A stretch of DNA of 64,000 bases, from the NCBI RefSeq assembly GCF_030814135.1, contig NZ_JAUSUQ010000009.1, positions 124,001-188,000 on the forward strand, written 5' to 3'. Position 1 is the first letter of the stretch. Each line of letters starts with the position of its first letter. Both the position numbers and the translations under genes were made by a program. The notes beneath the pieces were generated by a model. It searched no databases and was not told where the DNA came from. It was given only the letters and a program-made list of their open reading frames with translations. The DNA comes from Caldalkalibacillus uzonensis (GTDB lineage: Bacteria; Bacillota; Bacilli; Caldalkalibacillales; Caldalkalibacillaceae). Shown piece by piece: positions 40,025 through 63,868 of this stretch.

Positions 40025-41185
40025 TCAGGTCTCTCTCAACTGCCGGGCGGCTTCCACCATCATCTGTAACTTTGCAAAGGCCCGCTCCGGTGTATTCATC
40101 GGCCTCTGGGCAAACGTGCCAAAGCCGCAATCCGGATTGAGGAAAACAGTCATATCAGGCCGCAGACGGTTCAGCTGTCTGACCTTGGCCACAATCTCAT
40201 CCGGATGTTCTATCCGATCCGTGCGGGGATTTACCACCCCCAGTCCAATTTCCTTTTCTCCTACTTCTCGAAGGGCTTCAAGCTCTCCCGCTCTGGGCGT
40301 AGCATATTCCAGAATCAATTGATCGACATGCATTTCAGCTAAATAAGGAATCAGCGGGAAGTAGGGCCCTTTCAAGAGGACGGATTCATTGGTGCTCCAA
40401 TTGCCCCGGCAGATATGGACCCCAATGCGGGTTCCCCGTCCTCTGAAGCCACTGGTCACCTGATTGATTAAATCGGTGGCGAAACGCAGCTCTTCCTGTG
40501 CATCTTTTTTGGCTGTCAACGCCCCGCACATGAAGGTGCGGTTTGCATTTTTCTGGGTAAAAACCAATTCGGTCAAGACCGGCTCATCCAGTTGGACAAA
40601 GGCGACACCAGCCTCAATTAAGTCGTTTAACTCTTCCCGTAACACACGAACCACATCAGTTGCCAGATCTTCCTTGGTTGGATAGGTACTCTTGGACAAT
40701 CCTTCCACCCACATGGAACGTGTCAGCAGGTAAGGGCCAGGCAAGGCCACCTTGACCGGACGGTCAGTATGCTGTTTGACAAACAAATATTCATCCAGGG
40801 CTAGCGGTTTCTTTCGTCTGATGGGGCCCACAGCTGCCGGATTAGTTAAAGAATAGGCCGGCACGTCAAGTGTTCCCAGGATTTCTTCAAAACTGGCCTT
40901 GTCTTCGATATAGTCCAGCAACTCAGACACTCTTAACATGTTCACGTTTTCCAGCTTTTCAGCCACAAAGGAGACGAAATTGTCCCGTCGCTGCTCACCG
41001 TCTGAGACGATATCCACACCGGCGTCATGCTGGTAGCGCAAACAGGCCAAAACAGCTTCATCAGCCACCTGTTGAAATCTCTCGTCTGTCAGGCGGCCTG
41101 CCCGTTTATCACGCAATGCCTTCAACAATGTTTTGGAGCGGGGCCAGCTGCCAACCACCGTTGTGGGATAGTCAGGCAAGCTCAT
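40025..41185 (-). CDS. Methionine synthase II-like protein (MetE C-terminal family)
   Basis: 386-aa protein of the cobalamin-independent methionine synthase C-terminal barrel family, lacking the N-terminal MetE domain. Zinc ligands expected for thiol activation are visible: VHICRGN near 258 with His and Cys, and the C-terminal Cys in NPDCGFGTFA near 350. It begins TTVVGSWPRSKTL, a family hallmark. Such core proteins use methyl donors other than methyltetrahydrofolate or act on other thiols. It is last in a four-gene operon with TusA, DsrE and TusA-OsmC proteins, 26 bp after the OsmC stop, which suggests a thiol substrate delivered by sulfur relay. ATG 41185 follows GGAGGGAGATGA. Confidence 0.85.
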   Translation of the reverse strand: MSLPDYPTTVVGSWPRSKTLLKALRDKRAGRLTDERFQQVADEAVLACLRYQHDAGVDIVSDGEQRRDNFVSFVAEKLENVNMLRVSELLDYIEDKASFEEILGTLDVPAYSLTNPAAVGPIRRKKPLALDEYLFVKQHTDRPVKVALPGPYLLTRSMWVEGLSKSTYPTKEDLATDVVRVLREELNDLIEAGVAFVQLDEPVLTELVFTQKNANRTFMCGALTAKKDAQEELRFATDLINQVTSGFRGRGTRIGVHICRGNWSTNESVLLKGPYFPLIPYLAEMHVDQLILEYATPRAGELEALREVGEKEIGLGVVNPRTDRIEHPDEIVAKVRQLNRLRPDMTVFLNPDCGFGTFAQRPMNTPERAFAKLQMMVEAARQLRET

Positions 41186-41210
41186 TCATCTCCCTCCTTT
41201 CTCCGTCTGG

Positions 41211-41927
41211 CTAGTAAACGATTTTCAACTCCACATCAAGGTTCACCGCTTCTTTTAACGTTTGATATACAGGAGAGCGCTGGAGGGTGGTCTCCCAAAT
41301 AACCTGCAGTTCCTCTTCCTCGGCGGGTGAAGAGACATACATGGTTCCGCTCACAGCTTTCAGGCGAGGTGTACCTTCATCCTCCAGTTGCAAATGATAA
41401 AGCACATTGTCCAATCCGCCTTTTAAGGTCAACTCCAGCTCATCGATCTCTATATGCTGCCTGGAGGCGATCGCTTTAAAGCCGACAGCAAGATCAGAGC
41501 CTAAAGCAGCCAAGAGATAATCAATGGCACTGGGGGCATCCACCTTGGAACCGAAGTCGGCCGGCTGACCGGCATAGAAGGTGTGATTCCGGGCATGAAC
41601 CTTCGCCGTGAGGCCTTCTTCTCCCTGGATCCGCACAGACCATTGATAACCCCGGGCAGCCTCCAAATCCTGCTCTAACTGGTCATCCTGACCGCCTTTT
41701 TTAATGAAGTAACTGGTCCAGTTCACACCCGGTTCTGCTCCCAAATATTCATGCTCAACCATACGGCACCAGGCCGGCAGATCCTCAGCCACGCTCCGTT
41801 CACGGCTGCGCACCTCCAGCACCTGCCCTGGTGCCAAAGGGTCCATGTTCTTTTTGATGATTAACAAGAGGCCCGAACCGCAGTCCAAATCTCCTCCATC
41901 ACACATGGCGTCTGCTTTCATAATCAT
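41211..41927 (-). CDS. TusA-like / OsmC-like fusion protein
   Basis: 238-aa two-domain protein. Residues about 1-78 are a TusA-like domain with DCGSGLLL in place of the usual CPxP and a second cysteine in DLPAWCR; it is paralogous to the separate TusA gene two places upstream. Residues about 90-238 are an OsmC-type domain (SAIDYLLAALGSDLAVGFKAIASRQHIEI), a fold that reduces peroxides or carries thiols. The usual OsmC first Cys is not obvious: the NPEELL-like segment reads APSAIDYLL. Start ATG 41927 has GGAGGGG upstream. Probably a sulfur-carrier partner of the DsrE protein and the MetE-like enzyme. Confidence 0.78.
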   Translation of the reverse strand: MIMKADAMCDGGDLDCGSGLLLIIKKNMDPLAPGQVLEVRSRERSVAEDLPAWCRMVEHEYLGAEPGVNWTSYFIKKGGQDDQLEQDLEAARGYQWSVRIQGEEGLTAKVHARNHTFYAGQPADFGSKVDAPSAIDYLLAALGSDLAVGFKAIASRQHIEIDELELTLKGGLDNVLYHLQLEDEGTPRLKAVSGTMYVSSPAEEEELQVIWETTLQRSPVYQTLKEAVNLDVELKIVY

Positions 41928-41938
41928 AGCTGCCCCTC

Positions 41939-42301
41939 CTAATATGTGATGCAAGCGGCTCCCTGGGATAAGAATTCAACCAATTTGGCTCCCCCGACGA
42001 TTGTCGCTCCTTCGACCAACTTGTCTTCATCGAGATGACGCTTCTTAAAACAAGGACTGCACACCCAAATCTTTCCTCCTGCTTCAATAAACTGATCCAT
42101 CAGCTCTTTGAGCGGTGCAAAACCTTCTTCGTGAATATCTTCAGCCCGGCCTTGTTCAGCCAAGTAAGCACCTTCCACATTGAGAAAGACAACCGTTTCC
42201 TGTCCGGACGCAACCGAAGCATTGGCCACCACAAAAGCAACGGTCGCTTTGTCGGGGTCGTTGTGGGCATGTGTCACACTGACAACTAATTTTTTGGACA
42301 T
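41939..42301 (-). CDS. DsrE-family sulfur relay protein
   Basis: 120-aa protein with a DsrE/DsrF-like fold (KLVVSVTHAHNDPDKATVAF at the start) and a CxxC pair in WVCSPCFKKR near residues 78-86, suitable for carrying persulfide. ATG 42301 follows GGAGG; the frame runs 63 bases further up without a better site. It is second in the operon TusA-DsrE-TusA/OsmC-MetE-like, 13 bp after TusA. In sulfur-oxidising bacteria DsrE2 and TusA pass sulfur between each other; a similar handover is inferred here. Confidence 0.83.
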   Translation of the reverse strand: MSKKLVVSVTHAHNDPDKATVAFVVANASVASGQETVVFLNVEGAYLAEQGRAEDIHEEGFAPLKELMDQFIEAGGKIWVCSPCFKKRHLDEDKLVEGATIVGGAKLVEFLSQGAACITY

Positions 42302-42314
42302 ATTGATTTCCTCC

Positions 42315-42557
42315 CTATTTTCCCTTTTTGATCCAGTAATGCCGACCGACACCACTGTCCTCAATCTTCAACAATTGATGTCCCTGCAGGCGGCACCAGG
42401 CCGGCAAATCTTCCTTTGCACCACTGTCATAAGAGACCACCTTGATGATTTGCCCCGTATCCAGCGTCTTCATTTTACGAAACACATTCATAATCAACTC
42501 TCCGCATCCTGTCGGTCCTGCATCATAAACCAGATCCGTTTTAATCTCCTCTGTCAT
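42315..42557 (-). CDS. TusA-family sulfurtransferase, variant motif
   Basis: 80-aa TusA-fold protein. The active Cys is in GPTGCGELIM, so the family CPxP motif is CGEL, with a second conserved Cys in DLPAWCRLQGH near residue 55. Both features are shared with the N-terminal domain of the TusA-OsmC fusion gene, so the pair arose by duplication. It is the first gene of the sulfur-relay operon. ATG 42557 follows GGAGGTGGTGAG. A weak promoter (TTGCAT, 18 bp, TAAACT on the minus strand) lies just after the ytpB terminator. Confidence 0.8.
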   Translation of the reverse strand: MTEEIKTDLVYDAGPTGCGELIMNVFRKMKTLDTGQIIKVVSYDSGAKEDLPAWCRLQGHQLLKIEDSGVGRHYWIKKGK

Positions 42558-42704: not shown

Positions 42705-43790
42705 CTATATTTTGCGCCCTTTGCGATGGATATACCAGGCATTCAAAAAGAAAAACCAAGTGGACAGCTTCCGCCTCTTTAATAGTCGTCTGGAAATCTG
42801 AAGGACATCCTCCTGTTCCTTCACTTTGGGACTGGACAAGTACATGCCCAACAAACCTTCCACCATCATAAGATGAAAGGGGGCATTAGGCAGCTGGCTG
42901 GCTCTGTTTCGTGCTTCTCGAGAAATCCACTCAATCCGCTGAAGTTTCTCTTCCTCAGAAGGATAATAAAAGCAGAAATTAAGATCTCCTTCTTCCCTGT
43001 CTTCCTTTTGGTCGATCAGATAATCGAGTAAAATGTGCAGCCCCTGGATATAAGGAAAATAAGCCTCAAAAACGGTGTCATTCAATTCCCTGGTCCCTTC
43101 GTCATAACTGGCCAGAGCAACATAGTAAAAGATGCCCAATGTGGAGCCGGTAGCCGCTGCAAACTCATACCACTCCAGTTCAGGATAACGGTCCCGGTGC
43201 TTGTTCCACCAGGTATGTAAAGCTTGCTCACGTTTATCCAAGGCAATGTGCTTGTACACTTGCAAATCACAATACAGTTCACACAGAATGCGTACATTCT
43301 CTTTGTACAAATCGTAATTCGGCAGATTCTGCAGCGCTTCATGACAGGTTTGGACTAAAGCCCGCAAGTAGCCGCCATCCTCCTGATTGTCCTGCAGCTG
43401 GTAATAGTTATCAGCCGTGAAGGTGCCTGTGACGGCGTCGATCATAGACTGGTGTAAATGTCTGAAGTTGGCTTCGTCCATGGACACGCTCCGGTCACAC
43501 AAGTTGTCTAAATAATCGCTGATCGTTTGATAAGCAACAATAAACCTTAACACACTGTGCAGGCGGTCCGGTCTGGCTATCAAGCCATAGATACCTCCAC
43601 CTTCGCAATGAAACTGCTTGGTTGTCATGCTAGCCAGTGCCTGCTGTCTCAATTCAGCATCTGGCATACGCCCCGCTTTTCGTTTCCAAATATCCAGCTG
43701 CAGATGAACCTCAGGTAATATTTTTTTATAGATATCCCGCATGAGTGGAATGGGACGTTCGGGAACATGGGGTGCTGCGATGTTAGGCAT
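42705..43790 (-). CDS. ytpB: Tetraprenyl-beta-curcumene synthase (YtpB)
   Basis: 361-aa helical protein of the DUF2600/YtpB family, a terpene cyclase without the classical DDxxD set that converts tetraprenyl diphosphate to tetraprenyl-beta-curcumene, precursor of C35 sesquarterpenes in Bacillus membranes and spores. Recognisable are QFHCEGGGIYGLI near residue 60, FIVAYQTISDYLDNLCDRS near 85-103 with Asp residues likely to bind magnesium, and HILLDYLIDQKEDREEGDLNF near 250. ATG 43790 follows AAAGGAAG; an upstream ATG-like start at 43817 is less likely. It diverges from ytoA, as in the B. subtilis ytp-yto region. Confidence 0.87.
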   Translation of the reverse strand: MPNIAAPHVPERPIPLMRDIYKKILPEVHLQLDIWKRKAGRMPDAELRQQALASMTTKQFHCEGGGIYGLIARPDRLHSVLRFIVAYQTISDYLDNLCDRSVSMDEANFRHLHQSMIDAVTGTFTADNYYQLQDNQEDGGYLRALVQTCHEALQNLPNYDLYKENVRILCELYCDLQVYKHIALDKREQALHTWWNKHRDRYPELEWYEFAAATGSTLGIFYYVALASYDEGTRELNDTVFEAYFPYIQGLHILLDYLIDQKEDREEGDLNFCFYYPSEEEKLQRIEWISREARNRASQLPNAPFHLMMVEGLLGMYLSSPKVKEQEDVLQISRRLLKRRKLSTWFFFLNAWYIHRKGRKI

Positions 43791-43898
43791 GATAATCTTC
43801 CTTTGCTTTTTTCTCATACCTTTTATGATAGCCTATCTTCATCTTTGAGCAAAGTGTTAAAATGGAACTAAAAATAAAAGGATGGAGGTTAGCGTCTC

Positions 43899-57994: not shown

Positions 57995-59044
57995 TCAGTC
58001 TGTGACCTTGATGCAGCCAGGGTGATCACTGGTCACATAACCGATCTCAGCTGCATCCACACCTTGCTGATGCAACGCTGCCAGAAGCCCTGCTGCGTCC
58101 TGTTCATCTGCCGCCATGAGCAAGCCCCCTGAGGTGACGGCATCACACAGGATCCATTGTTCAATCTCATCAATGCCTTCTGCGTAGCTGACACAGTCAC
58201 TTAACCAGCGGTGATTCGCTTTAGTTCCTCCAGGGACAATACCCTTTTCCGCTAACCTGCGGGTGCCGGGCAAAACCGGAACCTTCGAGTGTTGAATCAC
58301 CAGGCCAAGCTGACTGCCCTTCGCCATTTCCGCGGCATGCCCCAGCAAGCCGAACCCGGTTACATCGGTGCAGGCATGAACCTTAAAGCCAGCCATCACT
58401 TCTGCCGCTGTTTTATTTAAAGCGGCCATCACCTGCATCACCTGTTGTAACTCTTCTTCACTCAGCAAATCCCGTTTGATGGCCGTGGTTTGGATGCCGA
58501 CACCGATGGGTTTGGTCAACAGGAGACGGTCTCCCGGTTTGGCCCCAGCATTTTTGAGCACCTTTTCGGGATGGACGACACCTGTACAAGCCAGGCCAAA
58601 TTTGGGCTCTGCATCATCGATGGAGTGCCCCCCTACCAGGGTGGCCCCTGCCTCGGCGACTTTATCCGCCGCCCCGCGCAGGATGTCAGCCAGGATCGAC
58701 TTGTCCAGCTTCTTGACCGGGAAGCCGACAATGTTCAGCACAGCCAGCGGCTTGGCGCCCATGGCGTAAATATCACTCAGTGAGTTGGCCGCAGCAATCT
58801 GCCCGAACATATAGGGATCATCAACAATAGGGGTGAAAAAGTCGACGGTCTGAACCAAGGCCAACTCGTCTGTCAGCCGGTAAACGCCGGCATCATCAGA
58901 GGTATCCAGACCCACAAGCAGATTGGGATCAGGAATCGTTGCTGGCAGATGACGCAACACGTGCGCCAGGTCCTCAGGACCAATTTTGCACCCTCATCCA
59001 CCCTTGGAGGAAAGGGCGGTTAATTTCACTTTTCCATCCGCCAC
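57995..59044 (-). CDS. selD: Selenide, water dikinase SelD, a UGA-encoded selenoprotein
   Basis: Makes selenophosphate from selenide and ATP for selenocysteine (and 2-selenouridine) synthesis. The 349-aa protein reads MADGKVKLTALSSKGG, then UGA (58994-58996), then GCKIGPEDL. The UGA is codon 17 and Lys is codon 20, matching E. coli Cys17 and Lys20, so UGA is selenocysteine. Without this, the gene seems to start at an internal GTG (58960). GTG 59044 has AAAGGAG eight bases upstream. Further motifs are DTSDDAGVY, VDFFTPIVDDPY with metal-binding Asp and LVGGHSIDD. Its start lies 135 bp after the cvpA stop. Other sel genes are not in this window. Confidence 0.93.
58961..58991 (-). promoter_or_regulatory. 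Candidate bacterial SECIS hairpin in selD
   Basis: Directly after the UGA, GGTCC (58977-58981) and GGACC (58969-58973) form a 5-bp stem around a TGA loop, supported by outer GTGC (58988-58991) / GCAC (58961-58964). The loop lies about 17 bases after UGA and holds a G, as needed for SelB recognition. The fold was drawn by eye. Confidence 0.6.
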
Positions 59045-63545: not shown

Positions 63546-63868
63546 AAAAAAGTCTCTCCCTTTTAAGGGACGAGACTTCGCGGTACCACCCTTGTTAGCC
63601 AAACATTAAATCGGTTTTGGCATGTCTTGCTGCCACAAAACTTCTGGCTCACTTCATTGGCATAACGGAATTGACCCGGTCACTGCTACCCCGTTTCCTT
63701 AAGCGGAAAGGCTCACAGGACAGCTCCGGAGGGAATTCAACAGCTTCCACCTTAGAGATGCTTCCAGCCCAAGGCATCTCCTCTCTTGAAGGGGAGAGGA
63801 CTGTCTACTCTTCTCCTTCACAGCTGATCACCATATGTTGTTGTAATAGGCACATATACTCATATTCA
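63546..63868 (-). ncRNA. T-box leader of pheST
   Basis: tRNA-Phe-sensing leader. The conserved T-box GGGTGGTACCGCG lies at 63580-63592, followed by a terminator (63546-63578; AAGTCTC...GAGACTT, then six T). Upstream is a long Stem I region. A Phe codon TTC at 63733-63735 (minus strand, in GAATTCCC) is the likely specifier. Uncharged tRNA-Phe would bind the leader and favour antitermination. Confidence 0.93.

Follow-up and report, generated by a model that had tools for sequence, protein, structure and literature searches.

Four adjacent genes of Caldalkalibacillus uzonensis, encoding a TusA-like protein, a DsrE-like protein, a TusA-OsmC fusion, and a core MetE-like zinc enzyme, make up a conserved cassette that is linked to selenium as such, a conclusion held with high confidence. 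A selenium-handling system is, on balance, the best explanation for the cassette as a whole, which probably helps cells to handle selenium by a route absent from the literature searched. Three observations favor selenium over sulfur: the cassette tracks SelB and SelD; it adjoins sel and yedE/yedF genes in relatives; and residue Cys220 of the MetE-like protein is replaced, in some relatives, by an in-frame TGA. All coordinates given here (Table 1) refer to the window, the stretch of 64,000 nucleotides that was analyzed (contig NZ_JAUSUQ010000009.1, positions 124,001 to 188,000).

The four genes run head to tail on the minus strand as one tight operon, with intergenic gaps (from TusA to the MetE-like gene) of 13, 11, and 25 bp. 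A sequence-only reading of this DNA had described four such genes in order, at most 26 bp apart, and Pfam matches confirm the domains. The variant motifs it reported also are real: CG(E/S) in place of CPxP; DLPAWCR, common to the TusA-like protein and the TusA domain of the fusion (where DCGSG replaces CPxP); and the DsrE CxxC motif, which reads CSPC. Residues C18 and C55 of the TusA-like protein are conserved in relatives (61 sequences), and DsrE residues C81 and C84 are at least 97% conserved (64 sequences). In the OsmC domain of the fusion, alignments place Asp and Ser at both peroxidase-cysteine positions, which we take to be those of the catalytic cysteines in the Ohr/OsmC family. The fusion shares its OsmC domain with the Ohr/OsmC peroxidases but has lost both catalytic cysteines, and assignment as an Ohr peroxidase was rejected for that reason.

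A promoter scan gives no obvious promoter for the operon (8 candidates versus 4.5 in shuffled sequences, a modest excess), and a terminator scan likewise gives a modest excess only (9 versus 4.6). An Rfam search of the window finds no riboswitch near the operon; the sole match is a T-box leader (RF00230, 108 bits; 63563-63830, minus strand) immediately upstream of a pheS-like open reading frame. Directly upstream of the cassette lies a gene for a DUF2600 protein (42705-43817, minus strand), which is absent beside the cassette in the relatives examined.

Table 1. Cassette genes, key MetE-like residues, and selD in the window
Feature	Position	Strand	Basis and remarks
TusA-like protein, 80 aa	42315..42557	-	PF01206, 1.3e-12; CGEL replaces CPxP
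DsrE-like protein, 120 aa	41939..42301	-	PF02635, 1.1e-17; CSPC motif
TusA-OsmC fusion, 238 aa	41211..41927	-	PF01206, 6.6e-08; PF02566, 6.1e-13
Core MetE-like zinc enzyme, 386 aa	40025..41185	-	PF01717, 5.3e-39; without N-terminal folate domain
Cys220 codon	40526..40528	-	Invariant in family; TGA at same place in three relatives
Zinc ligands His257 and Cys259 (HICR)	40409..40417	-	Alignment with MetE
Zinc ligand Glu293	40307..40309	-	Alignment with MetE
Zinc ligand Cys353	40127..40129	-	Alignment with MetE
selD, selenide water dikinase	~57995..59029 (start approximate)	-	TIGR00476, 4.9e-126; one in-frame TGA

The cassette is inherited as a block. In 398 Bacilli genomes, searched separately for each protein, orthologues of the MetE-like protein (identity at least 67%) and of the TusA-OsmC fusion (at least 55%) occur in the identical 10 genomes, from four families, and their genes are adjacent in every one. 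An alignment-based search of GTDB contigs returned 80 named loci (a single-sequence search of the contigs returned nothing). The DsrE, TusA-OsmC, and MetE-like genes stand together in 60 of the 60 Bacilli/Sulfobacillus loci examined, with the small TusA gene in front in nearly all. The same four-gene order is found again in Gallionella and Nitrospinales MAGs, and loci from Thermoflexales, Chthonomonadales, and Poribacteria carry the same genes, some with extra genes inserted. This supports the view that the four genes are one functional unit rather than an accidental grouping, as the sequence-only reading had claimed; independence of the genes in most relatives, the outcome it had named as contrary to its claim, is not what the Bacilli display.

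Variations around this core include a CcdA-like membrane protein or rhodanese gene adjoining the cassette in several loci, and a stand-alone second OsmC-like gene (~150 aa) just 3' of the MetE-like gene in many Neobacillus and related loci (loci with an extra OsmC-like gene after the cassette include L080, L084, L087, and L120). In one locus (L075, 8540-9720, genome G169) the MetE-like gene is broken into three frames, with an in-frame TAA, but its three upstream neighbors in the cassette are uninterrupted. A second arrangement, found in Chloroflexota, Acidobacteriota, and others, comprises genes for OsmC, an acyl-CoA-dehydrogenase-like protein (ACAD), a solute-binding-like protein (SBP), and the MetE-like protein (loci L076, L130, L131, L133, L137, L144, L154, L156, L157, and L184). 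Its ACAD and solute-binding-like proteins resemble M. tuberculosis Rv1679 and Rv1680, and in L184 it sits within a selA/selB/selD run.

The MetE-like protein can be assigned to the catalytic domain of the MetE superfamily on its zinc and homocysteine residues, all of which are kept. In MetE, the zinc ligands are H641, C643, E665, and C726, and the homocysteine residues are S433, E484, and D599 (PMC7857596); the MetE-like residues H257, C259, E293, C353, S13, E64, and D200 are invariant (87 sequences). The predicted fold is that of MetE, with Z ~36 and rmsd of 2.4-2.5 Å over ~330 residues against MetE structures. Assignment as a folate-dependent MetE was rejected because the N-terminal folate-binding domain is missing: PF08267 reaches 23.9 bits (cut-off 27) and spans 49 residues only, and TIGR01371 reaches 119 of the 930 bits required. 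This leaves PF01717 alone over its cut-off, in line with the earlier description of a core enzyme that lacks the folate domain. In a tree, the MetE-like family is split from YxjG-type proteins (100/100); the single MetE row in the same tree has a very long branch and an unsure placement.

Might this protein simply be an ordinary Mes-type core methionine synthase, sharing an operon with sulfur carriers by chance? Its MetE fold, along with conservation of every MetE zinc and homocysteine-binding residue, is what such an enzyme would have, and both MesA-D (Price et al. 2021, PMC7857596) and core-MetE (PMC7005905) likewise consist of the catalytic barrel with these residues and no folate domain. 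However, the MetE-like protein differs from them in its Cys/Sec220 insertion, in its fixed TusA/DsrE/OsmC partners in Bacilli, in its selenium-gene context, and in coexisting, in this genome, with a MetH-type protein (1164-aa frame). Given the MetH-type protein, methionine synthesis need not depend on the MetE-like protein, the only PF01717 protein in the genome. The MetH-type protein, the fixed partners, and the Cys/Sec220 insertion make a chance-placed methionine synthase very unlikely.

Every one of the 86 family members has Cys220. This residue sits in a family-specific insertion that the YxjG-type proteins and MetE used for comparison do not have, and its loop is modelled at pLDDT below 50. 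In three relatives (G008, G485, and G525) the residue-220 codon is TGA, and the reading frame continues beyond it. An in-frame TGA at the codon of an invariant cysteine implies selenocysteine at residue 220, and hence that the MetE-like proteins of these genomes are probably selenoproteins, as judged from the reading frames. The three form one clade (100/100), the G485 and G525 proteins being 53-57% identical to that of G008; G008, the one genome of the three examined for both SelB and SelD, has both. In the alignment, a hairpin (GUCA-AGUU/AGGU-UGAC) follows ~20 nt 3' of the TGA; folded by itself, the G485 sequence adopts another structure. Shuffling shows no significance for this SECIS-like hairpin, and no Rfam family matched it. 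A 2026 review of prokaryotic selenoproteins yielded no selenoprotein of the MetE type: the terms PF01717, MetE, and homocysteine are absent from its main text.

Co-occurrence also points to selenium. Each of the 10 genomes with the cassette has SelB, compared with 84 of the 398 Bacilli genomes in the sample as a whole (hypergeometric probability 1e-7, kinship uncorrected). Of 29 sampled bacterial genomes that have a MetE-like locus, 26 also encode SelD, which contains an in-frame TGA of its own; among controls the figure is 2 of 14. This co-occurrence covers Chloroflexota, Acidobacteriota, Poribacteria, Armatimonadota, and others. Selenium is used by about one third of bacteria (PMC9312934); with the background of 0.34 from that source, the 26 of 29 corresponds to a binomial probability of 7e-10 before kinship correction. 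In the window itself, a Sec-type selD lies ~15 kb from the cassette, outside the operon, and its TGA lies where Sec is usually found (the list of open reading frames begins selD downstream of this codon). SelB and tRNA-Sec of this genome are on another contig.

The main counter-evidence to the selenium reading is a set of carriers in which SelD was not detected: two Gram-negative MAGs, from Gallionella and Nitrospinales, have full cassettes but neither SelB nor SelD was found in them, and three archaea have MetE-like/OsmC genes but no detected SelD. Gaps in the MAGs may explain only some of these cases.

Selenium genes also are physical neighbors of the cassette. The order in Siminovitchia fortis is cassette-selD-selA-tRNA-Sec-selB-yedE-LysR; in Paenibacillus thalictri, yedF-yedE-LysR-cassette-LysR-selB-selA-tRNA-Sec; and in genome G547, on one strand, YedF-like/ACAD/SBP/MetE-like/OsmC/ACAD/ACAD/SelD/SelB/SelA. 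In the Chloroflexota locus L133, selD is immediately upstream, and in G525, YedF immediately precedes the MetE-like gene that bears the TGA. Such direct adjoining of sel genes is found in a minority of loci only. A divergent LysR gene of the selenium-associated type adjoins the cassette in ~20 Bacilli loci. Its standing as a strong selenium marker was downgraded, because among the 398 Bacilli the NCBIfam model NF040786 also exceeds its cut-off in SelB-negative genomes, many in family f5; the marker therefore is not specific, and the selenium-associated name of the model may be too broad. With the exceptions noted, co-occurrence with SelD/SelB and co-localization with sel genes place the MetE-like gene and the cassette among the accessory genes of selenium utilization.

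These results bear directly on the sequence-only reading, which took the element to be sulfur. In a sulfur relay proper, TusA and DsrE would pass persulfide sulfur to an acceptor that the MetE-like protein alkylates, or a methyl group would come from a sulfur compound, selenium being a lifestyle covariate. The domain content indeed is of the sulfur type, rhodanese adjoins some loci, and the cassette persists in the Gallionella and Nitrospinales MAGs, where SelD and SelB were not found. Sulfur alone is unlikely, however: it leaves aside the sel genes that are direct neighbors in four lineages, the invariant family-specific cysteine that becomes TGA, and the co-occurrence with SelD across many phyla. 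What survives of that reading is the single unit, the persulfide-type relay, and the folate-free MetE-like protein; what does not is sulfur as the element, since the cassette tracks SelB/SelD and adjoins selA/selB/selD, yedE/yedF, and the selenium-associated LysR gene in relatives.

How might a selenium-handling system work? We infer carrier roles, substrate, and direction as follows. TusA and DsrE would pass on the chalcogen (selenium, possibly sulfur too), which their conserved cysteines would carry as a persulfide or perselenide, and the TusA-OsmC fusion, its peroxidase cysteine pair lost, would act as a docking carrier instead of a peroxidase. The conserved TusA and DsrE cysteines and an OsmC domain without the peroxidase pair fit such a carrier chain. 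The MetE-like protein, as a zinc thiol enzyme, would bind homocysteine or a closely related compound, and its substrate would be a selenium or sulfur adduct on Cys220, a residue replaced by selenocysteine in one lineage. A MetE barrel with a homocysteine site and Cys/Sec220 suggests zinc thiolate-chalcogen adduct chemistry at residue 220, and methyl transfer between the chalcogen adduct and a thiol is possible. The likeliest course would be that a methyl or alkyl group is taken from a methylated selenium species and given to the zinc-bound thiol, and that the freed selenium is handed via the relay to SelD. This course is favored because it uses every part; demethylation of methylated selenium species in particular is a tentative assignment. 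Its most specific form, a cobalamin-free demethylase, is doubtful: methylselenium bound to Cys/Sec220 would give its methyl group to zinc-bound homocysteine, forming methionine, and perselenide would pass through TusA/DsrE to SelD.

Precedents for methyl-selenium use come from methyltransferases of the UroD superfamily, namely Sdm in Methanococcus (PMC11097638) and those of the mlp clusters (PMC10418091), in which methyl transfer is corrinoid-dependent (PMC11097638; PMC10418091). They share with the MetE-like protein a barrel superfamily and a link to selenium use. However, they work with corrinoid proteins, whereas the cassette has a thiol relay.

The chemistry also could run in reverse, with the MetE-like protein adding methyl groups to surplus selenide, or to a selenol bound to protein, so that the selenium can be exported or volatilized. 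Such detoxification shares the same selenium linkage, suits the SelD-lacking carriers better than selenium supply does, and could be read into the CcdA-like membrane protein that adjoins several loci. Yet the MetE-like protein has no methyl-donor domain, and in none of the loci was a corrinoid partner noticed; the operons that include selA/selB/selD suggest supply; and the protein retains its residues for the amino and carboxyl groups of homocysteine. Detoxification is thus quite improbable.

Among systems already associated with selenium, the cassette also invites comparison with YedF (TIGR03527), which has the same TusA and DsrE domain pair, fused, and a selenium-gene context. In the cassette, however, TusA and DsrE are separate genes, with CG(E/S) for CPxP and CSPC in DsrE. 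TusA scores 22.7 bits to the YedF model PRK11018 (cut-off 79), and DsrE has no YedF match.

No description of the gene set was found in the literature searched, most subscription journals being outside its reach. The cassette bears on two questions: how bacteria tell selenium from sulfur, and which form of selenium reaches SelD. It offers a conserved and testable four-gene entry point to both, linked to SelD in several phyla and containing an enzyme that swaps Cys for Sec. The cobalamin-free demethylase, if true, would define a new family of selenoproteins and also provide a new way of supplying selenium for selenocysteine synthesis.
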